Below are positions 13,323-34,043 of a stretch of DNA of 50,814 nucleotides, piece by piece. Origin of the DNA: Clostridia bacterium (lineage in GTDB: Bacteria > Bacillota > Clostridia > Christensenellales > Aristaeellaceae); NCBI GenBank assembly GCA_017470095.1, contig JAFUFC010000124.1:1-50814 (forward strand), in the 5' to 3' direction. The position numbers were made by a program, and so were the translations under genes. The notes under the pieces are model-generated. The model saw nothing but the letters and a program-made list of their open reading frames with translations. It did not search any database and was not told where the DNA came from. Position 1 is the first letter of the stretch; every line of letters begins with the position of its first letter.

Positions 13323-15749
13323 TTATTTCAGGTGCCAAATTTTCTCGTTGTATTCCCGGATGGTGCGATCAGAGGAGAAAATGCCGGAGCAGGCGGTATT
13401 GGTGATCGCCATGTGCAGCCATTTTTCCTTGTTCTGGTAATCGGCGTCGATACGGCGCTGGGCCATCGAGTAAGAGCCAAAATCCTTCAGCACAAAGTAG
13501 GGATCGGAGAAGAGCAAGTTATGGTAAATATCCTGCAGGGCGGCGGGGTTATCAGGGAACAGGGTGCCATCAATGATCTGCAGCAGGGCCCGGCGCAATT
13601 CGGCGTTGTTCTCATAGATATGCATAGGAGAATAATTGCCCTCCCGATACAGATCGCTGACGGTGTCCGCTCGCATGCCGAAGATATAGATATTGTCGTT
13701 GCCCACCTGCTCATACATTTCCACGTTGGCACCATCCATGGTGCCGATAGTGACCGCGCCGTTCATCATGAATTTCATGTTGCCGGTGCCGCTGGCTTCC
13801 TTGCCGGCGGTGGAAAGCTGCTCGCTCACATCCGTAGCGGGAATCAGCCGCTCGGCGGCGGACACGCAGTAGTTTTCCAAGAACACCACCCGCAGGTACT
13901 TCTTGGCCCGGGGGCTGGCGTCGATCAGCTTGCTGATGGCGATGATCATTTTGATGATCTGCTTGGCCATGTAGTAGCCGGGGCTGGCCTTGGCGCCGAA
14001 CACGAACACCCGGGGCGTCATGGTGAAGTTAGGATCGTCCATGATGCGGTTGTAGAGCACCATGATATGGAGGGCGTTGAGCAGCTGGCGCTTGTATTCA
14101 TGCAGCCGCTTGGCCTGCACATCCAGCATGAAATCAGGATCGATGCTCATTTTCTGGTTCTGCATCAGGAAATTGGAGAATAGCTCCTTATTCTGGCGCT
14201 TCACCTTGGCAAACGCGTCCTGGAAAGCCGGGTCATCCCGGTATTTGAGCAGTTCCTTCAGCTTTTCCGGCTCCCGCACCCAGCCGTCGCCAATGGTGTC
14301 GTTCAGCAGGGTACGCAGGCCGTCGTTGCAGCTCATCAGCCAGCGGCGATGGGTGATGCCGTTGGTGATGGCGGAAAATTTCTTGGGCGAGAATTCATAA
14401 TAATCCCGGAAGGTATCCTGCTTGAGGATTTCGCCGTGGAGCTGGCTCACGCCGTTGACCGAATAGCTCATGGCCACGCACAGGTTGGCCATGTGCACCT
14501 GGTTATAGGCGGTAACGGCCATGCGGGCAATGCGGGGATCGGCCCCGTTGTGGAAGTGATCGGCCAACCGGGCGCAGACCCGGCGATTGATCTCCTGGAG
14601 AATCATATAAATGCGGGGCAGCAGGCTGCGCATCATATCCTCAGGCCATTTTTCCAGCGCTTCACTCATAACGGTGTGGTTGGTGTAGGCCACGGTGTGC
14701 TGCACGATGTAGGAAGCTTCCTCCCAGCCCAGGCCCTCCTGGTCCATCAAGATGCGCATCAATTCGGGAATCGCCAGGCCCGGATGAGTGTCGTTGATGT
14801 GGATGGTAATCTTCTCCGGCAGCTTCATGAAATCATTGCCGAAGCGGCGTTTGAAATCCTTGATGGCATACTGCAAAGTGGCGCTGGTAAAGAAATAGTG
14901 CTGCTTGAGGCGAAGTTCCTTGCCTTCCCGGTGATTATCCTCCGGATAGAGCACCTTGCTGATCACGGCAGCCAGCTCCTGCTCCTGCATAGCCTTGGAA
15001 TAATTGCCGCTGTTGAAGGTGGACAAATCCATCTGCTTGGGGCTGCGGGCACGCCACATACGCAGGGTATTCACCGTTTCGCAGTCATAACCGCACACGG
15101 GCATATCGTAGGGCACGGCTTCCACCGTGCGGTAATCTTTGTGGATAAACTGCATTTTGCCGTTGGCCTGGGTTTCTTCCACATAGCCGCCAAAATGCAC
15201 CTGGCAGGTATCTTCCATATCCGGCACTTCCCACACGTTGCCGTTTTCCAGCCAAGCATCGGGCACTTCCACCTGCTGGCCGTCAATAATCTTCTGGCGG
15301 AACAAGCCGTATTCATACCTTATGGTGCAGCCCATGGCGGGCAGGGACAGGGAAGCCAGGCTGTCCATAAAGCAGGCGGCCAAACGACCCAGACCGCCGT
15401 TGCCCAGGCCCGGTTCCGGCTCTTCCTTGAGGATCTCACGCCAGTTGATGCCCAGTTCATCCAGGGCCTGGCGGTAGGTATCGTTGGAACACAGGTTCAA
15501 AATATTGCAGTGCAGGCTGCGGCCTGTCAAGAATTCCACAGACAGGTAATACAGCCGCTTGCCGGTGGATTTTTTGTCCTTCTCCCGGTAGGCCACCCAC
15601 TTTTGCATGATCTGGTCCCGCACGGTGGACGCCACGGCATAGTACACCTGCTGCTCCGTGGCGTCGGCCAGGGTGCGGCCGTTGTACCGCTGCAATTTGC
15701 CCAGAATGGATTGCTTGATGGATTCTTTATCGAATTGCGTAGTCGGCAT
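13323..15749 (-). CDS. glgP: Glycogen/starch phosphorylase, copy 1
   Basis: This is an 808-residue GT35 phosphorylase of normal family length. It cleaves alpha-1,4-glucan with phosphate to give glucose-1-phosphate in the cytoplasm. Visible family blocks include LGNGGLGRLAACFMDSLASL and the C-terminal pyridoxal-phosphate region EASGTGNMKFMMNGAVTIGT with the binding lysine. VQAKRLHEYKRQLLNALHI and YNVSWAEK-like ENYCVSAAERLIPATDVSEQ are also present. The start is the ATG with AGAGGAGG upstream; longer in-frame starts precede the promoter. It has its own promoter and is separated from the LacI-controlled operon by a terminator, so it is probably regulated independently of copy 2. Confidence 0.95.
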   Translation of the reverse strand: MPTTQFDKESIKQSILGKLQRYNGRTLADATEQQVYYAVASTVRDQIMQKWVAYREKDKKSTGKRLYYLSVEFLTGRSLHCNILNLCSNDTYRQALDELGINWREILKEEPEPGLGNGGLGRLAACFMDSLASLSLPAMGCTIRYEYGLFRQKIIDGQQVEVPDAWLENGNVWEVPDMEDTCQVHFGGYVEETQANGKMQFIHKDYRTVEAVPYDMPVCGYDCETVNTLRMWRARSPKQMDLSTFNSGNYSKAMQEQELAAVISKVLYPEDNHREGKELRLKQHYFFTSATLQYAIKDFKRRFGNDFMKLPEKITIHINDTHPGLAIPELMRILMDQEGLGWEEASYIVQHTVAYTNHTVMSEALEKWPEDMMRSLLPRIYMILQEINRRVCARLADHFHNGADPRIARMAVTAYNQVHMANLCVAMSYSVNGVSQLHGEILKQDTFRDYYEFSPKKFSAITNGITHRRWLMSCNDGLRTLLNDTIGDGWVREPEKLKELLKYRDDPAFQDAFAKVKRQNKELFSNFLMQNQKMSIDPDFMLDVQAKRLHEYKRQLLNALHIMVLYNRIMDDPNFTMTPRVFVFGAKASPGYYMAKQIIKMIIAISKLIDASPRAKKYLRVVFLENYCVSAAERLIPATDVSEQLSTAGKEASGTGNMKFMMNGAVTIGTMDGANVEMYEQVGNDNIYIFGMRADTVSDLYREGNYSPMHIYENNAELRRALLQIIDGTLFPDNPAALQDIYHNLLFSDPYFVLKDFGSYSMAQRRIDADYQNKEKWLHMAITNTACSGIFSSDRTIREYNEKIWHLK

Positions 15750-15807
15750 AAAACGCTGCCTCCTCTTTCTGAATTGCGAAAAATCGTGAAAAACACACGA
15801 ACAATTT

Positions 15808-15836
15808 ATTTTATCACGTTTCTTTTTATTCGTCCA
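15808..15836 (-). promoter_or_regulatory. Promoter of glycogen phosphorylase copy 1
   Basis: On the minus strand TGGACG (15831-15836, four of six consensus bases) and TAAAAT (15808-15813) are separated by 17 bp. The leader then holds a short inverted repeat TCGTG/CACGA (15784-15788, 15796-15800). The -35 is weak, suggesting activation or modest expression. Confidence 0.5.
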
Positions 15837-15849
15837 TAGGGAAATTGGT

Positions 15850-15879
15850 GAAAAAATCATGGAGCCCCGCAGGGGCTCC
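15850..15879 (-). terminator. Terminator after the lacI-malQ-glgP operon
   Basis: GGAGCCCC (minus strand, 15872-15879) pairs perfectly with GGGGCTCC (15861-15868) over a three-base loop. ATGATTTTTTC follows. It lies about 150 bp after the stop of phosphorylase copy 2 and just before the promoter of copy 1. Confidence 0.75.
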
Positions 15880-15921
15880 GCGCCCATCCTGCGGATGATG
15901 ATTGGCAAAGCATACAAGCAA

Positions 15922-15952
15922 TGCAGGGGGCGGATATCATCCGTCCCCTGCA
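15922..15952. repeat. Near-perfect 31 bp palindrome
   Basis: Two 14-base arms starting TGCAGGGG are joined by a three-base centre, with a single G-T pair. It lies in the noncoding gap between the two phosphorylase genes. The GCGGATATCAT core also occurs at 13202-13213. It has no T-run and so is unlikely to terminate transcription; a dispersed hairpin repeat is my reading. Confidence 0.5.
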
Positions 15953-16028
15953 ATTCCTTGATTTTTCTGAGGTTCCAGGTATGTGCCGGTTTGCTGCTTT
16001 TCGGTCCGATGCTGACAGCCCCTATGCA

Positions 16029-18371
16029 TCACACGTTCCAAATTTCCCTGGCGTACTGCTGGATGGTGCGGTCAGAGGAGAATTTGCCGGCGGAGGCCAC
16101 ATTGACCAGGCACTTGCGGGCAAAGCCGGCGGGGTCGGCAGCGTAGTCCCGGTTGGCTTGCAGCTTGGCGGCCAAATAAGAGGGAAAATCTTTGAAAATG
16201 AAGTAGTGATCGGGCTGATGCCAAGAAGCGCCCTTGAGCAGCGCGTCGTGCAATTCCCGGAACGCCCCGTCCTCATCGGGGAAAGTGCCGTCGATCAGGG
16301 CGTCGACCGCCTTGCGGATCACGGGGTCGCTGTCGTAAATGGCCCGGGGGTTGTAGGTGGGCTTCAAGGCGTTGATTTCTTCCACCGTGGCCCCGAAAAT
16401 ATAGTTATTCTCCCGGCCGGCCTGCTCCACAATTTCCACGTTAGCCCCATCGAAGGTGCCCAGGGTGACGGCCCCGTTGAGCATCAGCTTCATATTGCCA
16501 GTGCCGCTGGCCTCGGTGCCCGCGGGAGAAATCTGTTCGCTCACGTCGGCAGCGGGGATGATCTTCTCCGCCCAGGACACATTGTAATTCTGAACGAACA
16601 CCACTTTCAGCCGGTCGCTGGTTTCGGGGTCATTATTCACCTTTTCCGCGATTCGGTTGATGAAACGGATAATGGCCTTGGCCCGGACATAGCCCGCGGC
16701 GGCCTTGGCCCCGAAAATAAAGGCCGTGGGGGCAAAACCGGTGATGGCGCCATCCTTGAGGCCGTTATAAATGGCCAGGATTGAGAAAGCGTTCATCAGC
16801 TGCCGCTTGTATTCATGGAGCCGCTTCACCTGCACATCAAAGAGCATATCGGGATTCAGGCGCACCCCTTCCCGCTTCTCAATTTCGGCACAGAGCTGCG
16901 CTTTCTTTTCCCGCTTCACCTGCCGGAACGCATCGCAGAATGCCGCATCGATCATGGGCTTGAGCCGCTCCAGCTCATCCAGATTGGTCAGGAACCCTTC
17001 GCCAATCTTGCCGGCGATCAGGCCGCTCAGCTCCGGATTGCACAGGCCCAGCCACCGGCGCTGGGTGATGCCGTTGGTCTTATTCTGGAACCGCTCCGGG
17101 TACACCTGGTACCAGGCGGAAAACACATCCTTTTTCAGGATCTGGCTGTGCAGTTCGGCCACGCCGTTGGTGGCATGGGTGGCATACACGGCCAGCTGGG
17201 CCATGTGCACCCGCTTGCCCTCGATGACGCAGCGATCGGCCTGGACGGGATAGCCCAGGCGCTTCATGTCCGCCTTGAAGTGGGCATCGATCATTTTAAT
17301 CACGTTCACCACCGCCGGACACACGGAGGACAGCAGGGCCAGATCCCATTTTTCCAGCGCCTCCTGCATGACGGTGTGGTTGGTGTAGGCAAAGGTTTCC
17401 CGGGCGGTTTCAAACGCCGTATCGAAGGGAACGCCCTCCAGCATCAACAGGCGGATCAATTCAGGAATGGCCATGACGGGATGGGTGTCGTTGAGCTGCA
17501 CGGCGTATTCCTTGGCAAAGCAGGAATAATCGTTGCCGTGGCGGGCCTTGTACGCGCGCAGAATATCCTGCATGGTAGCGCTGACCAGCACATACTGCTG
17601 CTTCACCCGCAATTGCTTGCCTTCCCGCATAGAATCGTTGGGATAGAGGAATTTCACAATGTCCTCCGCCTTGTTTTTATCGGCGGAGGCGGCGGCGTAT
17701 TTCTGCGCGTTAAACAGCGGAAAATCAATTTCGTGCAGGCTTTCGGTCTGCCACAGGCGCAGGGTGCCCACGTTCCTTGCCCCGTAGCCCACCACGGGCA
17801 TATCGTAGGGCACGGCCAGCACATTGCCCGTTTTCATTTCCACCACCACTGCCTGATCCAGCCGGCGGATGGACCAGGGATCGCCGTACTTGGACCAGTC
17901 GTCCGGCTCCTCATGTTGGCAGCAATCGACAAAGGACTGTTTGAACAAGCCGTAGCGGTAGCGCAGGCCGTAGCCGGTCAAGGGAATATCGTGGGTGACC
18001 GCGCTGTCCAGGAAGCAGGCGGCCAGACGGCCCAAGCCGCCGTTGCCGAAGGCATCGTCCTCGATATCCTCCAGCATGGCCAAATCGACGCCCTTGGCCC
18101 GGAGCAAATCTCGGGCATCGCTCAACAAATTCATACAAAACAAATTGTTGTACACCAGCCTGCCCACCAGAAATTCAGCGGAAATATAGGCGGCCTGGCG
18201 CTTTCCGGCACGCTCCTGTTCTTTTTGGGCCCACACGGGGGCCAGCTCCTCCATAGCAGCGGCGGACAGGGCCTCATGCAGCTGGATGGCGTCTGCCTCC
18301 GGCAAAGCCTTGTGTTCCCGGGTCAGGAGCAGTTCCTCCGCCCGGGCAATCAAATGTTCCGCGGTCATCAT
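16029..18371 (-). CDS. glgP: Glycogen/starch phosphorylase, copy 2
   Basis: The product is a 780-residue GT35 phosphorylase paralogous to copy 1. It has FGNGGLGRLAACFLDSAVTH in the N-terminal third, DVQVKRLHEYKRQLMNAFSI, and the pyridoxal-phosphate block EASGTGNMKLMLNGAVTLGT. A GTG at 18383 overlaps the malQ stop, but the AGGGGGTG site has correct nine-base spacing to the ATG at 18371, which I prefer. It follows malQ directly and shares its transcript, so MalQ and this enzyme probably act together on maltodextrin or debranched glycogen. It is shorter than copy 1 at the N terminus and clearly diverged, so this is not a recent duplication. Confidence 0.95.
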   Translation of the reverse strand: MMTAEHLIARAEELLLTREHKALPEADAIQLHEALSAAAMEELAPVWAQKEQERAGKRQAAYISAEFLVGRLVYNNLFCMNLLSDARDLLRAKGVDLAMLEDIEDDAFGNGGLGRLAACFLDSAVTHDIPLTGYGLRYRYGLFKQSFVDCCQHEEPDDWSKYGDPWSIRRLDQAVVVEMKTGNVLAVPYDMPVVGYGARNVGTLRLWQTESLHEIDFPLFNAQKYAAASADKNKAEDIVKFLYPNDSMREGKQLRVKQQYVLVSATMQDILRAYKARHGNDYSCFAKEYAVQLNDTHPVMAIPELIRLLMLEGVPFDTAFETARETFAYTNHTVMQEALEKWDLALLSSVCPAVVNVIKMIDAHFKADMKRLGYPVQADRCVIEGKRVHMAQLAVYATHATNGVAELHSQILKKDVFSAWYQVYPERFQNKTNGITQRRWLGLCNPELSGLIAGKIGEGFLTNLDELERLKPMIDAAFCDAFRQVKREKKAQLCAEIEKREGVRLNPDMLFDVQVKRLHEYKRQLMNAFSILAIYNGLKDGAITGFAPTAFIFGAKAAAGYVRAKAIIRFINRIAEKVNNDPETSDRLKVVFVQNYNVSWAEKIIPAADVSEQISPAGTEASGTGNMKLMLNGAVTLGTFDGANVEIVEQAGRENNYIFGATVEEINALKPTYNPRAIYDSDPVIRKAVDALIDGTFPDEDGAFRELHDALLKGASWHQPDHYFIFKDFPSYLAAKLQANRDYAADPAGFARKCLVNVASAGKFSSDRTIQQYAREIWNV

Positions 18372-18379
18372 CCAATGAT

Positions 18380-19858
18380 TCACCCCCTGTTGGTTTCTTC
18401 ATTCAGTTGTTTCAGTTTCCGGGCCAATTCCTTCGTGGCGGCGCCGGGCTTCATGCGCCACAGCCAATTGCCGCCCACGGTGCCGGGCCGGTTCATGGTG
18501 GCCCAATCGCCCAGGGAAAGCACATCCTGCATGGGAGCCACAGCGATGCGGGCCCGGCTGGCAAACACCGTGCGGATCATGGCCCAGGGTGCGTCATCTT
18601 TGTTTTCAAAGCCGGCGATTCGTTTGGCGGCATCCAGCTCCACGTCGGAGCAGGTTTCAATCCGGGCCAAGGCCGTCACGTTGTCGTGGGTGCCAGTGTA
18701 GTAAGCGGTATTTTCCGGAATATTCTCCGGCAGATGAATGTTGGCGTCGTCTGCCCCAAAGGCGAAGGACAGCACCTTCATCCCCGGATAGCCGGTAAAG
18801 GCGATCAGGCTGCGCACCCGGTCGTTCACCGCGCCCAGATCCTCCGCCACCACATCCAACCCCGGCAGCTCCTTTTGCAGCCGCTTGAACAGCTTTTTGC
18901 CCGGGCCGATCACCCATTTGCCGCCCCGAGCGTTGGGCGCGCCATGGGGAATTGAATAATAATTGGCAAAGCCAATGAAGTGGTCGATGCGGATGATATC
19001 GTACATCTTCGCCATCTGGCCCATGCGCCGCACCCACCAATCATACCGGCGGAACCACAGGTACGTCCACCGGTAGAGGGGATTGCCCCACAATTGCCCA
19101 TCGGCGGAGAAATAATCCGGCGGCACGCCTGCCACCCGCCGGGGCACCCGGTCCTTATCCAGCTGGAACACCTTGGGTTCCATCCAGGTGTCGGCGCTAT
19201 CCTCGGCTACGTAGATGGGCATATCGCCAAAGAGGGAAATGCCCAGGCTATTGCAGTATTTTTTCAATTCCTGCCATTGCAGGGCAAACACGCACTGGCA
19301 CCACAGATGGAAGCGAATTTCCTCCTCCAATTCCTGGCGATACTTGGCCAAAGCGTCCTTTTGGTGCATCTTCGCCCCCTGATCGGGCCACTGGGTCCAC
19401 ATCTTGCCGCCGAAATGGTTTTTCAGCGCAGTAAACAGGGCAAAATCCTGCACCCAGCGGTTCTCCTTGATGAATGCGGCCATTTCCCGCTGCATCTTCA
19501 TTTCGCACTGGGCGAAGGCGGCGCGGAGCAGCGCCATCTTATGGGCACGCACCGCTTCGTAGTCGATCCGCTCCAGATGATCCGGCATATATTCTTGCCC
19601 AGACTCCCGAATAAATAATCCTGCTTCTTCCAATTTTTCCACCGAAATCAGCAAAGGATTGCCTGCGTATACGCTGGTGGACTGGTAGGGCGATTCGCCG
19701 TAGCCCGTGGGCCCCATAGGCAGCACCTGCCAAATCACCATGCCCGCTTCATGCAAAAAATCGGCAAATTCATAGGCTTCCCTGCCCAGGCTGCCAATGC
19801 CTCCTGGCCCCGGCAGAGAGGAAATGTGCATCAGAATCCCGCTTTGGCGCATGTTCAT
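18380..19858 (-). CDS. malQ: 4-alpha-glucanotransferase (amylomaltase)
   Basis: The 492-residue GH77 protein transfers alpha-1,4-glucan segments between maltodextrins, releasing glucose and lengthening acceptors for the phosphorylase. Diagnostic stretches are RQSGILMHISSLPGPGGIGS at the start, GDMPIYVAEDSADTW, IIRIDHFIGFANYYSIP with the catalytic aspartate, VVAEDLGAVNDRVR with the acid, and YYTGTHDNVTAL. I place the start at 19858 after GGAAAGGAT; an ATG six bases further in is equally possible. It lies 49 bp after lacI, and the next gene begins within nine bases of its stop, so the three genes form one operon. Confidence 0.95.
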   Translation of the reverse strand: MNMRQSGILMHISSLPGPGGIGSLGREAYEFADFLHEAGMVIWQVLPMGPTGYGESPYQSTSVYAGNPLLISVEKLEEAGLFIRESGQEYMPDHLERIDYEAVRAHKMALLRAAFAQCEMKMQREMAAFIKENRWVQDFALFTALKNHFGGKMWTQWPDQGAKMHQKDALAKYRQELEEEIRFHLWCQCVFALQWQELKKYCNSLGISLFGDMPIYVAEDSADTWMEPKVFQLDKDRVPRRVAGVPPDYFSADGQLWGNPLYRWTYLWFRRYDWWVRRMGQMAKMYDIIRIDHFIGFANYYSIPHGAPNARGGKWVIGPGKKLFKRLQKELPGLDVVAEDLGAVNDRVRSLIAFTGYPGMKVLSFAFGADDANIHLPENIPENTAYYTGTHDNVTALARIETCSDVELDAAKRIAGFENKDDAPWAMIRTVFASRARIAVAPMQDVLSLGDWATMNRPGTVGGNWLWRMKPGAATKELARKLKQLNEETNRG

Positions 19859-21100: not shown

Positions 21101-22387
21101 TTATTCCTCCGCCCCTCCGGTGATGGTAACGCCAGGCAAACGAGTGATATGGGGAATCAGGTACTGGTCATACTGCCGGGTGGCGGTGGAAAAGCGCAGC
21201 ACGCCCGAAAGCTTACGCATGTTGCCGGACACCGATCCGCCGGACACGATCTGCACCTGTTCGCCATCGTGCCAGTAACCCAGCCGGATCTCCCCGGCGA
21301 TATCGCCGGTCAGCGCGTCCACCTGAAAATCGGAAAAATCCAGCACTTCCAGGTACTTGCCCGTCCGGAGCGCTTCTTCCGCTTCTCCTTCCCCGCTTAC
21401 ATCAAAATTGCCGGCAATGAAAGCGTCCTCAATCTTCAAATACTGAGTAAACTGGCGGCTGCCCCACCAGTTTTTCGCCACGCCGTGGTCAATCAGGGTC
21501 AGATCCCGAATGGGCGCGCCCTCCGCATCGTAAGCGGCGTTCCGAGAGGAATTCTTCAAATGCTTGACAGCCCGGATGGTTAACTTGCTTCCGCCTTCCC
21601 CTTCGCACACGGACTGGCCGATTTCCCAATCGCTCAAGCCTTGATACTTCATGGCCGCGCTCATGCGGCTGATGAACCAATCATACACGTCCACCGCAGC
21701 GGCGTTGCTCAGCACCAGGTCCGCTTTCCCCAGGGCCGGGGTGGGCACGGTGTGCAGCCGGTCACGGCTGATGCGCAGGGTTTCGGCCAGGTTTTCCTTC
21801 AGCATTTGCCTGTCGCAAGTGCCGGAGGTGTAATTGCGGTACAGTTCAATTTCGTGCCCTTCCTTCCGGGCGTTGACCACCACCTCGATCATGGAAGAAG
21901 GATACACGCTGGTCACGTCGATGCCGGTGGAGCTGATGAAACGTTGGTTCACGAAGCTGGCAAAAATCTCGTAGGAGTTAATATCCTCCGTCTCCGTTTC
22001 AGGCAGTTCCTGCATGACCTGGATGAAATCCCGGGCCACCTGGGCCACATCCACCTGTTCCCCCGCATCAGCCGGGGCCTGAGCAGGGGCGCGGAGAGTA
22101 TAAGCCGGGTTTTTCACCAGGGCGGCCTGCTCCAGAAGACGGGTCACCGTCTGTTCCGCTTCCGCCCTTGTGGCGGTGGGGGCAATTTCCCCTGTGGCGC
22201 TGCCCAGGAACTGCTGATCTTCGCTGAGCCGGTATACCTTAACTTTTGTTTTCTGCACTTGGGACGCCCGGTTCTGGTCCAGCCGGTGGCGGATAAAATA
22301 AAATTCCCATTTTTCAGTGGCCGTATCGGTCACTTCCCAACCATCTGCGCCGCTTGCGCGCAGAATATCCAACAACGCATCCATCAT
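21101..22387 (-). CDS. pmbA: PmbA/TldE-type metallopeptidase partner
   Basis: The 428-residue protein belongs to the TldD/PmbA family and lacks the HExxxH of the partner, as expected for the TldE/PmbA subunit. Family features are VKVYRLSEDQQFLGSATGEI at the N-terminal side, STGIDVTSVYPSSMIEVVVN in the middle, and SGGSVSGNMRKLSGVLRFST near the end. The ATG is preceded by AAGGAGG. It follows tldD with an 18 bp gap. TldD and TldE form a heterodimeric protease that trims unfolded or ribosomally made peptides. It ends the long peptide-transport operon; I see no clear terminator in the 100 bp after it. Confidence 0.88.
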   Translation of the reverse strand: MMDALLDILRASGADGWEVTDTATEKWEFYFIRHRLDQNRASQVQKTKVKVYRLSEDQQFLGSATGEIAPTATRAEAEQTVTRLLEQAALVKNPAYTLRAPAQAPADAGEQVDVAQVARDFIQVMQELPETETEDINSYEIFASFVNQRFISSTGIDVTSVYPSSMIEVVVNARKEGHEIELYRNYTSGTCDRQMLKENLAETLRISRDRLHTVPTPALGKADLVLSNAAAVDVYDWFISRMSAAMKYQGLSDWEIGQSVCEGEGGSKLTIRAVKHLKNSSRNAAYDAEGAPIRDLTLIDHGVAKNWWGSRQFTQYLKIEDAFIAGNFDVSGEGEAEEALRTGKYLEVLDFSDFQVDALTGDIAGEIRLGYWHDGEQVQIVSGGSVSGNMRKLSGVLRFSTATRQYDQYLIPHITRLPGVTITGGAEE

Positions 22388-22405
22388 GGCTTTGATCCTC
22401 CTTCC

Positions 22406-23839
22406 TCAGCCCAAGTGCGCCCGGGCCTTCAAATACGGGCCGCCGTCGGACACTTTGACCCATTCCTTATAGCCCTTGCCGCAGCCGCCGGAGCCAAACA
22501 CTTCCCGGTCGCCGCTGGCCATTGACACGGAGCCCAGCAGGTCGGGCACATAGCCGGTCATCACGATGGGCGATACCACTTTGCCGGTCAACTTGCCGTC
22601 CACAATCTCATAGCCCCGCTCGATAATGCACTGGATGCCCCAGTGCTTGGGATCCTCCATGCCGGACTGCATGCCCCGGAGCAGGTAGCCGTGCTGAACG
22701 GAAGCGATCATTTCTTCTAAGGTGGCATGGCCGGAATCAAAAATGGTGTTGGTCATGCGGGTGTACACCTTATGGGCGTAATTTTCCCGCTTGCCGTTCC
22801 CAGTGGCCGCAGTGCCCAGCCGCAGGGCGGACAAAGCGTCGCAGATGCCGGTGCGCAGGATGCCATTTTCAATTTCGATCACGTCCCCGGCCAGGGTGCC
22901 TTCGTCGTCAAAGGCATAGCTGGTCACATCCACCGCGCAGGTGGCCCCTTCGTGCATGGTCACCAGGTCGCTTCCCACGCGCTTGCCGATGTAATCGGCT
23001 CCCAAGGCCCGGCCCTTGACGAACATATCCATTTCAACCCCATGACCGAACGCTTCATGGGCGATCAGGCCGGATACTTCCGGAGAGGTAATGATATCGT
23101 ATTCCCCGGGCTCGATGTGATCAGCCCGCAGGCAGTCTTCAACGGCCGTCAGGGCGCTGTCAAGTTTTCCTTCCAATTCATCCAGCAGCTCTATGCCCTT
23201 GCGGCCAGACGCGCTTTCGTAGGATAGGGCATTCTTCCCTTCCCGCATGGCAATGGGCAGAATGGCGCCTTCGGAGTACACATAGCTTTGCCGCATATGC
23301 CGGTTGGCGGTAAGAAACAGCTTTGAAATGTGGGTGGATTGAAAACTGACCCGGCAGTCCAGCATGTCCTTACCCCGCGCCATCCCAGCGTTGGACAGGG
23401 CGGTCAGCCGCTCAATCAGCTGCTTCTGATCGCAATTCTCCGGCAAAATCTCACAGTCAAATTCCGCCGTCAATTCGCAGGGTTCATCGGGCAGCGCCGC
23501 CGTATCGTACACCTGGCTGCCGGTGGCTTTCAGCACCATGAGCTGCGCGTCCAGCGCTTTGAGGATTTCCGCCGCCTTCTCCTCCGATTTTTCCGGCTCG
23601 AAAGCGTTGAAGGCGTATTCGCTGTACAGGCCATTCCGGTGCACCCGCACCACCTGGCCCCGCTCGGTGGTCATGGTTTCGTTTTTCACGGCCTTGGCCC
23701 GCTGGCCTATGCCCATGCTGAATCCCACGGAATCAGTGGCCAGGATGCTGACGTAATCGTAATGGCTGCCCAGCAGCTCCACCAGCCGCCTGAGCCCCGG
23801 TTCAATCCCGGTCAGGTAAGCTGAAAACGGTGCTTTCAA
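22406..23839 (-). CDS. tldD: TldD-family zinc metallopeptidase
   Basis: The product is about 477 residues. The TldD zinc motif HEAFGH lies near residue 261, in GLIAHEAFGHGVEMD, and a later cysteine/glycine-rich CIIERGYEIVDGKLTGKV block supports the assignment. GGAGGAGGG ends eight bases before a TTG codon at 23839, so I take that TTG as the start. An upstream frame reading through the ribosome site itself is not credible. The initiation codon is therefore noncanonical. The gene lies 94 bp after the ApbE-like gene and 18 bp before pmbA. Together the pair would degrade peptides, which fits a transporter operon. Confidence 0.88.
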   Translation of the reverse strand: MKAPFSAYLTGIEPGLRRLVELLGSHYDYVSILATDSVGFSMGIGQRAKAVKNETMTTERGQVVRVHRNGLYSEYAFNAFEPEKSEEKAAEILKALDAQLMVLKATGSQVYDTAALPDEPCELTAEFDCEILPENCDQKQLIERLTALSNAGMARGKDMLDCRVSFQSTHISKLFLTANRHMRQSYVYSEGAILPIAMREGKNALSYESASGRKGIELLDELEGKLDSALTAVEDCLRADHIEPGEYDIITSPEVSGLIAHEAFGHGVEMDMFVKGRALGADYIGKRVGSDLVTMHEGATCAVDVTSYAFDDEGTLAGDVIEIENGILRTGICDALSALRLGTAATGNGKRENYAHKVYTRMTNTIFDSGHATLEEMIASVQHGYLLRGMQSGMEDPKHWGIQCIIERGYEIVDGKLTGKVVSPIVMTGYVPDLLGSVSMASGDREVFGSGGCGKGYKEWVKVSDGGPYLKARAHLG

Positions 23840-23933
23840 CAAAATTCCCTCCTCCAATTGCCAGCTTTTTCGGGCGGATCATCTTCGCCCTTGCATTTTT
23901 GTATCGCCTGTATGGGTTCCTTCCCTGCCCCTC

Positions 23934-25160
23934 TTATTCCGCCGGGGAAAACCGGGCCAGGCTCGTATTGGTGACGATGGTTCCGTTTTCTACCCGAACG
24001 ATGCCCAGATCGTCATTTTGGATGGCCTCCAGCGCCGTTTCATCCGGCTGGTCGGCAATATACGCAGGCAGCAGGGACAGCAGCACATCGGCGCATCCCT
24101 GGTGGCGAGACAGCGCGCACAGGAACGGAAACGCCGCCTTGCACAGGCCGTCTTGCGGGTCGATGGCAGCGGTGCGGATATCACCGATGCCATATACGTA
24201 ATAGTGGGTTTCGTGCGCTGGGTCGATCGGGAAGGCCCGGAGCGTTACCAGCGTCATGGGGCCGGTGTATTCCAGCCGGCCCACCGGCACGCCTCGGCCG
24301 TCCTGAAGCTCATACAGGTTCTGGGCGTACAGGGTATTCCGTTCATCCAGGCACCGAGTGAAGCCGTCCAAGCTGGACAGGGTACCGTGGGTGTAGCCCT
24401 TCTCGATCAACGCTTCAGCAATACAGTCGGCGGCAAAAGCATTGCGCATCCAGGAAAAATCCAGATAAGCGGTAGTTTCGCTGTCCCGGCAGAAGGCGGC
24501 ATAGCGGTCGGACACCGTTAAACATACCGTATCGTTTCCCAGGAAACGCAGGGAGATATCCGCCGGGTTCATGGCATATGCCGCCGCTTCCGCTACCCAG
24601 GCCCGGGTTTCCTCATCCAAGAAGGGATCGAAAGCCGCCGCTTCCGCGTCGGATGCGCTATTGAACAGGCTTTGGTAAGATTCCCAAATGGGCCCCAGAT
24701 ACAGCCACCGGCCGGCGCTTTCCATTTTTTCCAAGGCCCGGTACAATTCGGGCTCCACCCGCACCTCCTGGTTGGGGTGGCTGTTCACCTGCCACAGGTT
24801 TTGAATTCCCATATGCGTCTGTCGGGCGTCCAGCACCTGGTACGCTCGCACCGACGCGGTGGTGTACAGCATGGTCAGCGCCTTCCGGGCAATCGCAGGC
24901 GATTCGCCGTCCGCGCCCAGTTCGTAATTGAACACAAATTCCGCGCCGGCCCCCAGGCCCGCGCCGCTATCCGCCTCGATGGCGGTCCAGCCATTTTCCA
25001 CCCGCAGCAGCGTCAGCACAGAATAAATCAGGACCCCGGCCAAAATGACCAAGGCCCCGATGAACGCTGCCGTCTTCAGGGTGAAATGCTTATCGCTCAG
25101 CTCAATGCGCTGAACCGGTTTGGGTCGGTTCGCTGTGCGGTCTAACGCTTCACGCTTCAT
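23934..25160 (-). CDS. ApbE-like membrane-anchored protein lacking catalytic motifs
   Basis: This 408-residue protein has a 35-residue basic/polar start and one membrane helix (AAFIGALVILAGVLIYSVLTLL), so most of it lies outside. The outside part resembles the ApbE flavin-transferase fold along its whole length. It contains QEVRVEPELYRALEKM followed by GPIWESYQSLF (compare the VSPEL...L and VGPL...W blocks), YLDFSWMRNAFAADCIAEAL where ApbE has DLGGIAKGYAADR, TAAIDPQDG for HIIDPKTG, and a final ADVLLSLLPAYIA. The DLGGIAKG glycines and the TSG motif are absent, so FMN transfer is doubtful. The relationship is my inference from alignment by eye. It lies 10 bp after oppF and starts with AGGG upstream. 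Confidence 0.55.
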   Translation of the reverse strand: MKREALDRTANRPKPVQRIELSDKHFTLKTAAFIGALVILAGVLIYSVLTLLRVENGWTAIEADSGAGLGAGAEFVFNYELGADGESPAIARKALTMLYTTASVRAYQVLDARQTHMGIQNLWQVNSHPNQEVRVEPELYRALEKMESAGRWLYLGPIWESYQSLFNSASDAEAAAFDPFLDEETRAWVAEAAAYAMNPADISLRFLGNDTVCLTVSDRYAAFCRDSETTAYLDFSWMRNAFAADCIAEALIEKGYTHGTLSSLDGFTRCLDERNTLYAQNLYELQDGRGVPVGRLEYTGPMTLVTLRAFPIDPAHETHYYVYGIGDIRTAAIDPQDGLCKAAFPFLCALSRHQGCADVLLSLLPAYIADQPDETALEAIQNDDLGIVRVENGTIVTNTSLARFSPAE

Positions 25161-25170
25161 GTTTTCCCTA

Positions 25171-26475
25171 TCAAACGATGCTCAGCAGTAGGAAAATGCC
25201 AAACAGCACCAGCACCGCGGCAATCAAAATCAGCCCGGCGATCGCGCCTTTTTTGCACATTTTCTGGTTGCGGAAATGATGGAAATGCTTGAAGATCGCC
25301 GCGGCGATCAGGCCCAGGATGGGCAGGAAGAAGGACAGGATCGTGTACCATATGCTGCCCGTATCGTGCACAGGGGTCTGAAGGAATTCATCCTCCGCTT
25401 CTTCCTGCGCCTGCTCCTGGGGCGCCTCCTCGTTTTCGTCCAGCAAAGTGATGGATTTGAGGGGCACGTTCTTTTCCCGCAGGGCCTTGTACTCCTCGAT
25501 CTCCTTGGAATTGCCAAACACATAATGGCCATGGCCGATATCGGTCAGCTTGGGCTCCTCCTGGCTGTAATCATGCACAGAGGGGTCGTAAGTGAACAGC
25601 GCCTTGTGCTTTTCCAGCTTGGGATCGGGAATGGGAATGGCAGAAATCAGGGACCGGGTGTAGGGATGGAGCGGGAAATTGAACAGTTCATCGGTGGTGG
25701 CCACTTCCACAATATCGCCCTTATAGATAACGGCGATGCGGTCGGAAATGAACCGGACGATGGACAGATCGTGGGCAATGAACAGGTAGGTCACGTTCCG
25801 CTCCCGCTGGAACTTTTTGAGCAGGTTCAGCACCTGGGCGCGAATCGACACGTCCAGGGCGGAGATGGGCTCGTCGGCAATGACCAATTCCGGCTCCATA
25901 ACCATGGCCCGGGCCAAACCAATGCGCTGGCGCTGGCCGCCGGAAAATTCATGGGGATAGCGGGTCAAATGCTCGGGAAGCAGGCCCACTTCATTGATCA
26001 TGGTTTCCACCTTTTGGACGCGCTCGGCCTCGCTGTTAAACAGGTGGAAGTTGTACAGGCCTTCGGAGATGATGTAGTCCACCGTAGCGCGCTCGTTCAG
26101 GGAGGCGGCGGGATCCTGGAACACCATCTGCACGTTGCGGATCACTTCCCGATCCAAAGACCGAGGAATTTTTCCGGAAATGCGCACGCCTTTATACTGG
26201 ATTTCACCCGCCGCGCAGGGATTGACCCGAATTACGGCCCGGCCGATGGTGGTTTTGCCGGAGCCGCTCTCGCCTACCAGGGAGAAGGTTTCGCCCTTGA
26301 AAATATCGAAGGACGCGTTTTTCACAGCACGGACGGCGTTATCGTCCTTGCCGAAGGTGATATCCACATTTTTCAGGGACAGGAGGATTTCGCGGCCATC
26401 CTCGTTAACCGGCCCTTTTTCCGGCAGATGCGCCGCGCTGGCGCTCCGCTTGGCCTCTTTCGCGTTATCAGGCAC
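25171..26475 (-). CDS. oppF: Peptide ABC transporter ATPase OppF with C-terminal membrane extension
   Basis: The 434-residue protein begins at GTG (26475), supported by GAGGAGGAG upstream. Residues 25-330 are an OppF-type ATPase: Walker [10 protein letters not shown]-loop [10 protein letters not shown], signature FSGGQRQR, Walker [13 protein letters not shown], then the oligopeptide C-terminal region. After an acidic linker ([18 protein letters not shown]) come about 65 extra residues with two hydrophobic helices ([17 protein letters not shown] and [18 protein letters not shown]) joined by a basic loop. OppF proteins normally end near residue 320. The extension looks like the small 2-TM modules seen in DUF4190-type proteins and may tether the ATPase to the membrane; that is inference. 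Confidence 0.88.
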
Positions 26476-26493: not shown

Positions 26494-28242
26494 TTAAATA
26501 TTGAATGCTTCCAGCAGTTTTTCGTGGATGTTTTCGATGATCTCGGGCTTCTTCACCTTGGGGGAGCGGGGGTCCTCCAGCCAGGTCTTGGCGTAGTGGG
26601 TATCCGTCACCCGGAACATGGGCGGCTCCTTCAAGGTGTCGATCTTCATGCAGTAGGGATTCCGGGGGGCGAAGGGATCGCCCACGATCTTGTTGTACAA
26701 AGATGGCGGCGTGCCCGTGATGGAGTACAGGGGCTTATCCTTCTGCGCCAGCTGGGGCAGGGAGGACAAAAGCGCCCAGGTGTAGGGATGGCGGGGATCG
26801 TAGAACACTTCCTCCACCTGCCCCACTTCCACAATCTGTCCGGCATACATGACGGCCACCCGGTCAGCCACGTTGGCCACCACGCCCAAGTCGTGGGTGA
26901 TGAACACGATGGTGTAATCAAACTCCCGCTGCAAATCCTTAAGCAGTTTCAGGATCTGGGCCTGGATGGTCACGTCCAAAGCGGTAGTGGGCTCGTCGCA
27001 GATCAAAATCTTGGGCTGGCAGGACAGGGCGATGGCAATGACGATGCGCTGCCGCATGCCGCCGGAATACTGGAAGGGGTAATCGTCGAACCGCTTTTCC
27101 GCATTGGGAATGCCCACCTTCTTCATCAGGATCACGGCGCGCTCCCGTGCCTCCACCTCGGAGCAGTGCTGATGCTTGATGATGATGGAGGTGATCTGCT
27201 TGCCGATGGTGATGATGGGGTTCAGGCTCGTCATGGGGTCCTGGAACACGGTGGCAATGCGGCGGCCGCGGATCTGCGTCCAGTCTCCATTGTCCCGGAT
27301 CTTGGCCAGGTTCACGGCGCACACGCCATGGAGCTTTTCGTTGCTTTCGTCCAGCAGCTTCACCCGGAAGGTGACCGGGTCAAAGGCGTTGTTCAGGGCG
27401 GTATCGTCGCTCAAGTCAATGCCTTTGGTCATGGCCTTTTTCATTTCTTCCTGCAATTGGCGCAGAGCGCGCACCCGCTTGGTAGCCCGATAGCGGCCCA
27501 CAGACAGGTACATTTCCCGGGCAACCCGGGCGCACTGCTTTTCCGTTTCAGGAGAAACAGACTGGGCAATATCCTTTTCATACTGGGCCTTCAGCACCGC
27601 CATACGCTGATTCCAGTCGTTCTGCCAGGCGGTATCCGCCTGGGCAGCGGCCTTCAGTTCCTTCACCCGGGCGGCCCGGGCGGCCTGACGCTCCTTCACC
27701 TTGGCGTCCAGGGCGGAAATTTCCGCCGCCGCAGCCTTAATCTTATCCTTTTCTTTGGAGGTATCGAAGGTCTGCTTCAGGTTGAACAGTTCGGTGCGCT
27801 TGAACACCAGATCGCCGATTTCGGTGTCCCACTTGTCCGCTTCTTCCTCGGACATGGTGGTACGGCTCCGCTTTTCGGCCTGGAGCGCCTCCATCTGATG
27901 GTAGACGTCTGCACCTTTGAGCAAGCGCGCGTTCTGGATCAGCTTTTCCTGGGCCCGGCGAATGGACGCCCGGGCGCCGTTATCCAGCATGACGGTGGTA
28001 TCGGCCAGTTCATCGTCGGTGAAGAAAATATCGCCCTGATCGATGAAGCCGTTGCCATCCAGCATACCGGCAAAGGTTTTCGTGAATACGGATTTACCAG
28101 AGCCGGATTCGCCCACGATGGCGATGGACTCGTTTTCGTAAATATCCAGGGAAATATCCCGGATGGCCGTCAGGATGCGGCCGCGCACCCGGAATTTGAC
28201 CACCAGGTCCTGCACGCTCAGCAATACTTTTTTCTCTTCCAT
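26494..28242 (-). CDS. oppD: Peptide ABC transporter ATPase OppD with large helical insertion
   Basis: The 582-residue protein is an OppD-type ATPase interrupted by a long insertion. Walker A GESGSGKS is at residues 44-51. In the other OppD of this window the Q-loop follows about 50 residues later; here [11 protein letters not shown] comes about 285 residues later. The extra block (about residues 75-318) is highly charged and helical, for example [20 protein letters not shown] and [19 protein letters not shown], and looks coiled-coil. After it the core resumes normally ([22 protein letters not shown]). The reading frame is intact throughout, so this is not an assembly scar. The start ATG has AGAGGTG upstream. 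It lies between oppC and oppF in the operon. Confidence 0.9.
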
Positions 28243-28252
28243 GCCGCACCTC

Positions 28253-29242
28253 TTACATATGTGTCCGGGGGTCGGACGCGTCGCCCAGGTTCTGACCCAC
28301 CACATACAGCACCACGGTGATAATGGAGGCCACAGCCACCGGGGACCAGAACTCAAACTGCCAGCCGGGCGTGAGCATGGCGTTTTCCGCCTGATAGATC
28401 AGCCGGCCCAGGGACATATCCGACATGCCCATGCCGATATAGGAAAGGAACACTTCATAAGAAATATAAGAAGGAATTTCCGTGGCCATCAGCGTCACGA
28501 TGACGGAGGTCATGAAGGGCAGGATGTTCTTCATGGCGATACGCAGGATGGGCGTGCCCAGGCAGCGGGAAGCCAGATTGTACTCCCTGTCGCGGATGAT
28601 GATAACTTGGGTGCGGATGAAGTAGGCAATGCCCAGCCACCCGGTGATCGTCAGGGCGAACACCATGGTCCAGAACCCGGCGGAGAAAATGAGCACCAGC
28701 ACGGAAATGAACAGGATGTAGGGCACATTGCCGATGATGTTGTACACCTCGGTCATGAAAATATCGAATTTCTTGGAAAAGCCCCACACCGAGCCCACCA
28801 GGATGCCCACCGTCATGTTGATGGCCGCGCAGATAAAAGCCATGGTGATGGAAATGCGGCTGCCAAACCATACGGCGTCAAAGGTGGATTGTCCAGACGC
28901 GCCGGAGCCCAAAATCCAGTGGATACTGTGGCCCAATTTATTCAAGGCCGCGCCAGGAAGCAAATGCTTGGCGGAAGAATCCATCAGGTTCTGGAAAGGA
29001 TCATAATCCACCATGAGGGGATAAATGTAGGTGAAAGCCAAAATGATGGCAAACAACGTGAGAATCACAATGTTGATCCGCTTGCGGAAGAACACCCGAA
29101 ACACGCTTTTCCAGTAGGAATACCGGGGCGCGGTGATTTTTTCGGATTCAAGATCGTTATGGTCCACATGAGCGAAGAGCTCGGCCTCGGACATGCTCAG
29201 GTCCGACAAATCAACCAGTTCGTTATAATTATTGACTTTCAT
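28253..29242 (-). CDS. oppC: Peptide ABC transporter permease, OppC-like (system 2)
   Basis: The 329-residue permease has an N-terminal cytoplasmic tail, the first helix NIVILTLFAIILAFTYIYPL, a loop with the HWILGSGASGQSTFDAVWFG segment and five further membrane helices. The coupling motif is REYNLASRCLGTPILRIAMK. The loop motif GSGASGQSTF differs from the FGTDxxGRD found in system 1 and in most OppC proteins and is closer to the AmiD type. It starts six bases after the oppB stop and is followed within 10 bases by oppD. Confidence 0.9.
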   Translation of the reverse strand: MKVNNYNELVDLSDLSMSEAELFAHVDHNDLESEKITAPRYSYWKSVFRVFFRKRINIVILTLFAIILAFTYIYPLMVDYDPFQNLMDSSAKHLLPGAALNKLGHSIHWILGSGASGQSTFDAVWFGSRISITMAFICAAINMTVGILVGSVWGFSKKFDIFMTEVYNIIGNVPYILFISVLVLIFSAGFWTMVFALTITGWLGIAYFIRTQVIIIRDREYNLASRCLGTPILRIAMKNILPFMTSVIVTLMATEIPSYISYEVFLSYIGMGMSDMSLGRLIYQAENAMLTPGWQFEFWSPVAVASIITVVLYVVGQNLGDASDPRTHM

Positions 29243-29248
29243 GCCCGA

Positions 29249-30817
29249 TCACCGCCCTTTCTCCGTGAAGGAAATTCTGGGGTCAACCAGCGACATCAGC
29301 ACGTCGCCCAGGATGATGGAAACCACCGACAGCAGCGCGTAGAACAAGGTCACGCCCACGATGACGCCGTTGTCATAAGTATTGATGGCCTTCGTGAGCA
29401 AATTACCTGCGCCAGGCACCACATACACACGCTCGGTGATGATGGCGCCAACCAGGCTGCCCAGCACGCTGGCCGGAATGCCGTGCACCAGGGGGATGAC
29501 GGCGTTCTTCAAAATATGCTTGGAGAAGATTTCCCGCTCGGTCAAACCGCCGCTGCGGGCGAACTTCACGTAATCCGCGTTCATTTGGTCGATCATGTAG
29601 CGGCGCAGCCACTTCATCAGGTTGGCAACCGACGGCAGCGCCAGGGAAATGATCGGCAGCGCATACATGCGCCAGTCAACAGAATCCATATTGAAAGTGG
29701 TCGGCAAGCCCATGCTGTAACCAATGGCTTTAAACAGGAAAATGTACGCCAGAGAAGGAACAGCGATGATGAATACGATGTAGACCGTGCCGATCTTATC
29801 AATGGTCTTATCCTTCTTGCGCGCCATCACGATGCCCAGCGGCACGCCAATCAAATAGGCAAGGAACACAGCGATAATGCCAATCACGAAGGAGTAGCCC
29901 ACTTTGCTTAATCCGCTCTTGATGGTCACCACGCTGGTGTAATCGTCGGTGAAGCGATCCCGGTTCACCAGGCTGGCATCCCGAGAGCCGGCCGAATACG
30001 TAGCGCTATGCAAGTCATCGGCGCTGTTCTCCGTCAGACCGGTGGGATAAGTGAGAACACGGGTCACATAAGAGCCTTGCGGTGCGTTCATACTCTGGAA
30101 CACATCCACGCCCGAATTGACCGTATAGGATTTGCCCAGATTAATGGTCACCAGATTTTGGTGAACGAAGGGGAAATGATGATCGGTGTACAGCAGATAC
30201 TTATGCAGTGTGCCGTTGCCGATAATGGCTGGGGCAAACGTGTCCCCGCCATAGACAGGATCATGCAGGGTAAAGGTCAGCCCTCTTTGGCCAACATCCT
30301 CCTGCACATAATGGATATTGTCCACGCTGACCAGGCTGGTCAGGTAATTCCACAGCCGGCCCATCAGGGGCTTATCCTTATAGGCGAACAATTGCTGCTG
30401 GCCGCCGGGCGCCACCTTTTTCTTGGACAGCTTGGCATCCAAGCGGGTGACGGCGTAGCCCTGCCCTTCGTAATAAGCGGTAAAGCGGGCGACGTATTCC
30501 GCCACTTCCTCCGAATCATTCGACGCCTTTTGGCCAAACGCGGATAATTCAGCGGCTCTTTCCGCCGTCAATTCGCCGGAAGCCACCAGCGTTTGCAGCC
30601 ATTCCGCGTAAGGAACGTAATCGATGTAGCCGAAGTCTTCCCACTTGCGGTACTGATACACCGTTTTCTGGTTGTTGCCCAATTGCACATATACTGGATC
30701 TTGGGCGAAAATCAGCTGCCGATCCAGGCAGGAATATATCAGCACCATCACGATGGCGACCACGATGATCACCGATACGAGGCCGTGCAGAATGCGCCGG
30801 AGCAAATATTTCGTCAT
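29249..30817 (-). CDS. oppB: Peptide ABC transporter permease, AmiC/OppB type with large external loop
   Basis: The 522-residue permease has a first helix (ILHGLVSVIIVVAIVMVLIY) and then about 280 residues outside the membrane before the remaining five helices (VGYSFVIGIIAVFLAYLIGV onward). The coupling loop is DYVKFARSGGLTEREIFSKH. The extra domain is also known from streptococcal AmiC (about 500 residues), so this marks the system as Ami-type. The external domain probably contacts the binding protein. The ribosome site is weak (GAGAGTG), and a 149 bp gap with a hairpin separates it from oppA, suggesting lower expression than the binding protein. Confidence 0.9.
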   Translation of the reverse strand: MTKYLLRRILHGLVSVIIVVAIVMVLIYSCLDRQLIFAQDPVYVQLGNNQKTVYQYRKWEDFGYIDYVPYAEWLQTLVASGELTAERAAELSAFGQKASNDSEEVAEYVARFTAYYEGQGYAVTRLDAKLSKKKVAPGGQQQLFAYKDKPLMGRLWNYLTSLVSVDNIHYVQEDVGQRGLTFTLHDPVYGGDTFAPAIIGNGTLHKYLLYTDHHFPFVHQNLVTINLGKSYTVNSGVDVFQSMNAPQGSYVTRVLTYPTGLTENSADDLHSATYSAGSRDASLVNRDRFTDDYTSVVTIKSGLSKVGYSFVIGIIAVFLAYLIGVPLGIVMARKKDKTIDKIGTVYIVFIIAVPSLAYIFLFKAIGYSMGLPTTFNMDSVDWRMYALPIISLALPSVANLMKWLRRYMIDQMNADYVKFARSGGLTEREIFSKHILKNAVIPLVHGIPASVLGSLVGAIITERVYVVPGAGNLLTKAINTYDNGVIVGVTLFYALLSVVSIILGDVLMSLVDPRISFTEKGR

Positions 30818-33485: not shown

Positions 33486-34043
33486 ATGGGACAGCAGTGC
33501 GCGCCCTCGGTGGTCTGCCTGGGTTTTTTTGACGGAGTGCACAAAGGGCACCTGGCCCTGATCGAAGCAGCAAAAAAAGCGGCAAAGGAAGAAAACCTGC
33601 GCGTATGCGTACACACCTTCGATCACGCGCCGGGCAGCAAGGGGATTGAATTAACCACGCTGGCCCAGCGGGAGCGGTTGCTCCGTTCCGCGGGGGTAGA
33701 CGAGGTGGCCGTCAGCGCGTTCGACGACGATATGCGCCACATGAGCGGGGATGATTTTTTTCGGCAAATCGTATTAAACAGGCTGAACGCCCGTCACGTG
33801 GTCTGCGGGGACGATCACCGATTCGGCTACAAAGGCGCCTGGGGGATTGAAGCGTTGCGGCAAATGTGCAGCCAAGCGGGAATTGGCTTAACGGTGGTGC
33901 CGGCGGTAACGCTGCCGGACGGCACGCGCATCTCTTCCACCGCCATTCGCCACGCCATCGAGACGGGCAATTGGCCCTTGGCGGAGCAAATGCTGGGGCG
34001 AAGCATCCCCGAAGAAGAAAAAAATCCTTTCCATAATAAATAA
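33486..34043 (+). CDS. FAD synthetase domain protein (RibF N-terminal half only)
   Basis: The 185-residue protein matches the adenylyltransferase half of RibF: LGFFDGVHKGHLALIEAAK at residues 12-30, the central GDDFFRQIVLNRLNARHVVC with DHRFGYKG, and ISSTAIRHAIETGNW near residue 155. The C-terminal riboflavin kinase domain of bifunctional RibF (total about 310 residues) is missing. The frame ends cleanly at a stop and nothing resembling the kinase follows before frr. It may convert FMN to FAD with kinase supplied elsewhere, or act on another nucleotide substrate. AAGGAG lies before the start. The gene has its own promoter and precedes the frr operon. Confidence 0.8.
   Translation: MGQQCAPSVVCLGFFDGVHKGHLALIEAAKKAAKEENLRVCVHTFDHAPGSKGIELTTLAQRERLLRSAGVDEVAVSAFDDDMRHMSGDDFFRQIVLNRLNARHVVCGDDHRFGYKGAWGIEALRQMCSQAGIGLTVVPAVTLPDGTRISSTAIRHAIETGNWPLAEQMLGRSIPEEEKNPFHNK

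Follow-up and report, generated by a model that had tools for sequence, protein, structure and literature searches.

A conserved, putatively helical arm domain ahead of the Q-loop in a subfamily of OppD ATPases

Opp-type importers bring in peptides on which many gut bacteria live. The DNA analysed here (the window, a stretch of 50,814 nucleotides from a Clostridia bacterium) encodes two oligopeptide systems, and the OppD ATPase of the second (582 residues; 26494–28242, minus strand) carries a large insert inside its nucleotide-binding core. This locus raises the question of whether that insert is a genuine and selected part of the protein, what shape it may take, and what it might reach in the cell.

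Position, family and selection of the insert

The protein, which the open-reading-frame listing starts further upstream at a TTG, is an OppD-type ABC ATPase: PF00005 and PF08352 (oligo_HPY) both match above cut-off, and the motifs are mostly invariant over 75 rows, with Walker A (GESGSGKS) at residues 44–51, the Q-loop glutamine at Q334, the signature SGGMRQR at 393–399 and H450. Between Walker A and Q334 lie 282 residues, close to the roughly 285 reported by the first-pass annotation. Counted from the glycine of Walker A, the QDP motif lies 290 residues away here and 56 in the OppD half of the ATPase at 6377–8431, a protein for which the annotation gave about 50 residues between Walker A and the Q-loop. 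In this other Opp system of the window OppD and OppF are fused into one protein of 684 residues (minus strand), whose OppD half has no insert. Alignment with it sets the stretch DDELADTT...GDWTQIRG of arm-OppD against a short loop and bounds the insert at residues 84–318 (27289–27993, minus strand), about 235 residues in all; the block of about 230 residues originally placed at 27295–28020, equivalent to residues 75–316, thus exists, but its limits have shifted. Its composition (34% D, E, K or R, and 3% P plus G) and open reading frame agree with the initial description of a charged, in-frame insertion between Walker A and the Q-loop, and the covariation presented below supports the helical character also proposed, making helices probable. 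A sequencing artefact had been named beforehand as one finding that would overturn the observation, but relatives in many assemblies carry the insert in an open frame as well, and its length is nearly fixed, the distance from GML to the QDP of the Q-loop being 275 residues in 70 of 76 parsed relative loci and 271–274 in the other six. The insert is neither chance nor artefact.

The initial view that the known family has no such insertion was wrong as a general statement, since the NCBIfam model NF043079 contains the arm and 386 stretches of genome_contigs encode arm-OppD relatives. This model of Mycoplasma OppD (MMSYN1_0167, a name that refers to the minimal Mycoplasma cell; 561 positions) matches arm-OppD in a single stretch, residues 7–578 against positions 1–557, with 712.6 bits. 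That score lies under the curated cut-off of 740, which L015 and L016 exceed with 756 bits; in a class sample 2 of 196 genomes pass it, and 0 of 14 controls do. The second-best model, PRK09473 (OppD), reaches 309 bits, split over two stretches. With no flanks, the insert by itself matches NF043079 in 75 of 75 members at E ≤0.01 (best 2.3e-10, window 1.6e-5), and the insert with short flanks in 8 of 8, whereas shuffled versions of the window insert match it in 0 of 5, one shuffle hitting an unrelated model at E 0.018. The insert is therefore homologous to that in NF043079, the HMM through which the link to Mycoplasma is made. Unrelated helical models drew weak matches from a few bare inserts, never more than 2 of 75 for any one model. 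Pfam returned no family for the window insert, and the seven families that it gave for six inserts, one member each (best 8.7e-5), were judged to be chance matches of helical sequence. A PDB profile search with the insert gave nothing significant (best E 0.15); with full-length arm-OppD, the closest relatives in the PDB match the ABC core (best 60 of 540). In the accessible text of a literature search conducted mostly outside subscription journals, the arm was not found described, neither as a domain nor as part of a six-gene module, and the available portions of a Mycoplasma paper mention OppD and OppF without an arm domain (PMC5797395). The arm is thus already part of a public NCBI Mycoplasma model, and its description as a domain and module is new with respect to the literature searched.

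Conservation was assessed in a protein alignment of 75 rows, comprising the window and 74 of 80 relative loci (L047, L052, L058, L061, L093 and L120 were left out). Mean identity in this alignment is 48% for the insert (minimum 34%) and 85% for the core, with gaps in 11 of 17625 insert cells. Across 46 usable of 62 close pairs, median omega is 0.22 for the insert and 0.07 for the core, and insert omega stays at or below 0.41 among the 20 pairs listed. The insert is under purifying selection. Its lower identity relative to the core could be taken to favour neutral linker expansion or an assembly artefact, but the low omega, the fixed length and the recurrence in many assemblies and an isolate genome reduce the probability of either to practically nothing. 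The insert is almost certainly a selected domain of a shared OppD subfamily, and we refer to it as the arm.

Inferred shape, spread and origin of the arm

Conservation within the arm is uneven: the sides vary, tip and base are conserved, and the conserved islands fall at residues 154–168, 236–251, 270–277 and 290–313. Covariation over 114 sequences (effective number 85) ranks the pair 288–311 first, followed by 113–224, 149–179, 142–215 and 117–214, and a smaller run with 79 sequences placed 113–224, 109–227 and 138–189 among its top pairs. Within residues 85–285, the antiparallel band i+j=330±8 takes in 9 of the top 20 pairs, where 1.4 are expected, and 10 of the top 40, against an expectation of 2.8 and a range of 1–6 over ten column shuffles. 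If the band centre is allowed to vary, the best band holds 9 of the top 40 pairs versus 4–8 in ten column shuffles, which do not preserve sequence relatedness; this free-centre test is weak, and the hairpin signal therefore draws partly on block tests. In these tests, whose z values are maxima over many offsets, antiparallel pairing scores 5.75 for residues 88–128 with 203–228 and 6.2 for 131–153 with 164–200, while control blocks (H1–H3, H2–H4) score 1.6–2.7; the block H1–H5 also scored 4.7 antiparallel and 4.1 parallel. For a folded-back bundle, which the pairs 142–215, 144–205 and 145–212 might indicate, neither orientation stood out (z 2.4 and 2.7).

Taken from sequence, these patterns suggest that two antiparallel helical stretches form a hairpin whose conserved tip is near residues 154–164. 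The putative outgoing arm (residues 88–153; 27784–27981, minus strand) covaries with a putative returning arm at residues 164–228 (27559–27753, minus strand), and the conserved residues between them (154–163; 27754–27783, minus strand), within the island 154–168, would form the tip. A conserved base follows at residues 235–313 (27304–27540, minus strand), ending in a probable beta hairpin at 287–313 that accommodates the top-ranked pair. If its helices are straight, at 1.5 Å per residue, the arm would be roughly 90–100 Å long.

The annotation had also said that presence in all Ami-type OppD proteins would refute the observation, but the arm is not so general: it is missing from the other OppD of the window, and of 308 genomes in the window's family 47 have it, spread over 15 of 50 genera. 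Samples of the class and of the phylum gave 4 of 391 and 2 of 398 genomes; all three counts take in the genome of the window. With the window insert as query the arm was recovered in 6 of 60 relative genomes, and it was found in 6 of 150 genomes of the family of genome G084, both counts including the centre genome. The best 80 of the 386 stretches come mostly from Clostridia (Oscillospiraceae, Lachnospiraceae, Clostridiales and other Clostridia or Bacillota); two of these 80 are labelled Bacteroidaceae and Bacteroides, and one belongs to a named strain, Fusicatenibacter saccharivorans (L049). Where an origin is stated for arm loci, it is often the mammal gut.

A tree of the ABC core with the insert removed was built from 89 rows, namely 66 of 134 insert rows kept by a 93% redundancy filter, 13 non-insert OppD and 10 others, with very long branches for L008 and L068. 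All 66 insert rows form one group (support 100/98; 100% of 200 bootstrap trees), and in this tree the arm has one origin. The nearest group consists of 8 non-insert OppD rows, the window's fused OppD among them. Inside the arm group lies a longer-arm branch of 11 rows with a Walker A–QDP distance of 296–302 residues, versus 286–290 in four other rows; over 138 insert-bearing loci, duplicates included, the commonest distance is 290 (98 loci), then 302 (20). The patchy scatter of the arm and the mixing of different families in the tree suggest that it has moved by gene transfer.

Loss of iron-sulphur ligands accompanies the arm and extends beyond it. In E. coli DppBCDF, each ATPase is reported to hold a [4Fe-4S] cluster through four cysteines, and the cluster to be needed for assembly (PMC12136057). 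When positions are matched by spacing to Cys284, 290, 297 and 315 of DppD (PMC12136057), the ligand cysteines are replaced in arm-OppD by D522, N528, D535 and T553 in 75 of 75 rows. The 14 distinct non-insert rows comprise 11 of the same GDxFxxRN type as arm-OppD, two that keep the cysteines and one unrelated at this point; the fused OppD half at 6377–8431 lacks the cysteines, as do all 8 non-insert rows of the sister group. Because these sister rows are cysteine-free as well, an OppD can do without the cluster even where it has no arm, and the cysteines were lost either before the arm arose or independently of it.

The six-gene module

The genes of the module run in the order OppA, OppB, OppC, arm-OppD, OppF and ApbE-like protein, all on the minus strand. 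Its neighbourhood was compared over the best 80 of the 386 relatives, which were found through the insert, so that the synteny is biased to close relatives. The OppA-type substrate-binding protein (PF00496; 30967–33108) has an uncertain start. OppB (522 residues; 29249–30817) has an enlarged external loop of about 283 residues (29903–30736) between its first two predicted membrane helices, about 207 residues longer than the loop of about 76 in the window's other OppB. Its length is 521–533 residues in 71 of 75 loci, the other four being pieces of 119 or 319 residues, and it is long (frames of 531–545 residues) in longer-arm loci where it was caught. OppC (329 residues; 28253–29242) completes the permease pair. 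Upstream and divergent from the operon stands a gene with an FAD-synthetase domain (185 residues; 33486–34043, plus strand); a flavin link through this gene was rejected, a match being found in 2 of 80 related loci. Elsewhere in the window, at 13323–18383 (minus strand), lies a pair of glycogen/carbohydrate phosphorylase genes, after which come a 4-alpha-glucanotransferase and a LacI-type regulator.

OppF (434 residues; 25171–26475) is best matched by the Mycoplasma OppF model NF043078 and has no insert, the distance from Walker A to the Q-loop being 52 residues in all 78 neighbouring OppF proteins parsed, with the window entered twice. It ends in a tail (25174–25509) with two predicted membrane helices (residues 377–395 and 416–434) and the conserved motifs HDTGS and RNYKxCKKG, and its Pfam matches are weak and scattered. 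Of 188 family genomes 17 have the tail, each carrying the arm; among the genomes listed, G031, G394 and G406 have the arm without the tail. In complete OppF proteins beside a short-arm OppD, at least one tail helix is predicted in 75 of 75 and two in 71, versus 0 of 9 beside a non-insert OppD, and a reading in which the arm works with this membrane hairpin at first appeared strong. The tail is, however, missing from OppF in 9 of 9 longer-arm loci (L193–L201), although present in the short-arm control L202; covariation between arm and tail is the lowest of those tested, and the match to the Mycoplasma OppF model stops before the tail. Such a partnership is accordingly very improbable, unless it was added later within a single subclade. 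As the longer-arm loci keep the ApbE-like gene and not the tail, the arm and the ApbE-like gene are paired in both branches, and the OppF hairpin goes with the short-arm branch. In locus L120 (6827–9874) a 1016-residue open frame joins arm-OppD to an OppF with membrane tail, either a true fusion or a stop lost in assembly.

The sixth gene (23934–25160, directly after OppF) encodes an ApbE-like protein of 408 residues with one N-terminal predicted membrane helix. It was matched in 71 of 80 arm loci, and among the 9 without it two had room for the gene (L052, L116). Within the family, 48 of 308 genomes carry it: all 47 arm genomes and 1 of the 261 others, G016, where the stretch concerned (L203) is cut inside OppF near the contig start and so has no OppD before it. 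The arm and the ApbE-like gene thus share presence and absence nearly perfectly, and in G295 both are doubled, with stops in one ApbE-like copy. The window protein scores 16.8 bits with the Pfam ApbE model, below the cut-off of 25.6. In an alignment of 37 of the 71 matches, selected by length (the 71 frames span 170–478 residues and 60 have at least 300), four members match the Pfam model at E ≤0.01, the best at 4.7e-6; PDB profile matches of the sixth-gene protein to ApbE are not significant (E 0.02–0.1). The catalytic motif of ApbE is of the DxGGxxKG type, and where its K and G would fall N stands in 34 of 37 members and A in 36 of 37. With K and G replaced, the ApbE-like protein is expected to be degenerate and inactive as an FMN transferase, and its N-terminal membrane helix would place it outside the cell. 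Arm-OppD identifies a separate type of importer that has a scattered distribution in gut bacteria.

Proposed role and comparison with known systems

Our preferred reading, held tentatively at a probability of about 0.42, is that the arm is a rigid strut that touches the transporter itself and not a dock for a peptidase. The hairpin would stand on its conserved base, beside the beta strands running towards the Q-loop, and its tip would make a fixed contact within the same transporter, with the partner ATPase, the membrane subunits or the membrane face. Such a contact might help to assemble the transporter or couple ATP hydrolysis to the membrane subunits, and the importer in question no longer has the four cysteines of the [4Fe-4S] cluster by which canonical Opp/Dpp complexes are stabilised. 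Constant length, variable sides and a conserved tip are what would be expected of a strut that reaches a fixed place, and the fact that no soluble partner gene is conserved among the neighbours tested favours a contact within the transporter.

The first-pass annotation had suggested that the insert could reach other subunits, which may be so, but inter-protein covariation showed no partner for the arm among the OppF tail, OppF core, OppC and OppB. The top scores were 7.8 with the OppF tail, 9.6 with the OppF core, 9.7 and 9.1 with OppC, and 10.3 and 10.5 with OppB, and a negative control, the external part of the ApbE-like protein, reached 9.7. Since the best score, 10.5, hardly exceeds this control, covariation does not separate a strut from a docking site. 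Ranked next is the possibility that a soluble protein of the cytosol, for instance a peptidase or a regulator, docks on the arm; the arm's charged surface, its conserved tip and the lack of a covarying partner inside the transporter are compatible with this, as is the presence, just downstream of the module, of two genes with PmbA/TldD C-terminal domains (21101–23857, minus strand). That pair is nevertheless matched in 1 of 80 related loci, for which reason a link to the module was dropped and the earlier suggestion of a docked peptidase has no support, although a peptidase encoded elsewhere might still dock, and the one conserved sixth gene among the neighbours tested encodes the ApbE-like protein, which would lie outside. 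We therefore consider docking rather unlikely. Less probable again is that transporters are linked to one another by their arms, whose long antiparallel helices would hold them in clusters, for variable sides with a conserved tip and base fit a tip contact better than side-by-side pairing.

More broadly, the degenerate ApbE-like protein, the large loop of OppB and arm-OppD could form one inherited unit, although we regard this wider proposal as doubtful. It would describe a class of importer without iron-sulphur clusters, held together and coupled by the cytosolic strut and equipped with one more subunit, anchored outside the cell, that assists in selecting substrate or passing it on; the class would move among gut Clostridia by gene transfer, and Mycoplasma would keep a version of it. 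A subfamily that combines a large domain within the ATPase, close linkage to a sixth gene and the lack of iron-sulphur ligands would represent an alternative means of assembling and powering an Opp importer, and would give meaning to a Mycoplasma OppD domain that NCBI has modelled and that was not found described in the accessible part of the literature searched.

The closest known counterpart is Mycoplasma OppD, whose model matches from end to end with the insert included, the window protein differing in its score below the 740 cut-off; the corresponding OppF model, of 649 positions, is longer than the window's OppF, which matches it in three pieces. Among other ABC ATPases, SMC and Rad50 have long antiparallel helices inserted after the Q-loop. 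They resemble the arm in their helices and differ in that the OppD insert precedes the Q-loop, and bare inserts match SMC and Rad50 models at chance level (2 of 75 and 1 of 75 members at E ≤0.01). The arm of EttA probably also sits after the Q-loop, whereas the OppD insert lies before it and is about five times longer. The EttA arm, an ABCF arm domain, is reported to comprise residues 94–136 of NBD1, to be helical and to make a fixed contact (PMC8782954); these residue numbers speak against an EttA-like insertion site for the OppD arm, and the likeness is that of a helical arm growing from an ABC ATPase domain towards a fixed contact. Canonical OppD and DppD of E. coli and M. tuberculosis, sequence relatives with solved structures, share the ABC core and the oligo_HPY C-terminal region with arm-OppD; the best solved relative that was aligned has no insert, and the [4Fe-4S] cysteines described for the canonical proteins (PMC12136057) are absent from arm-OppD.
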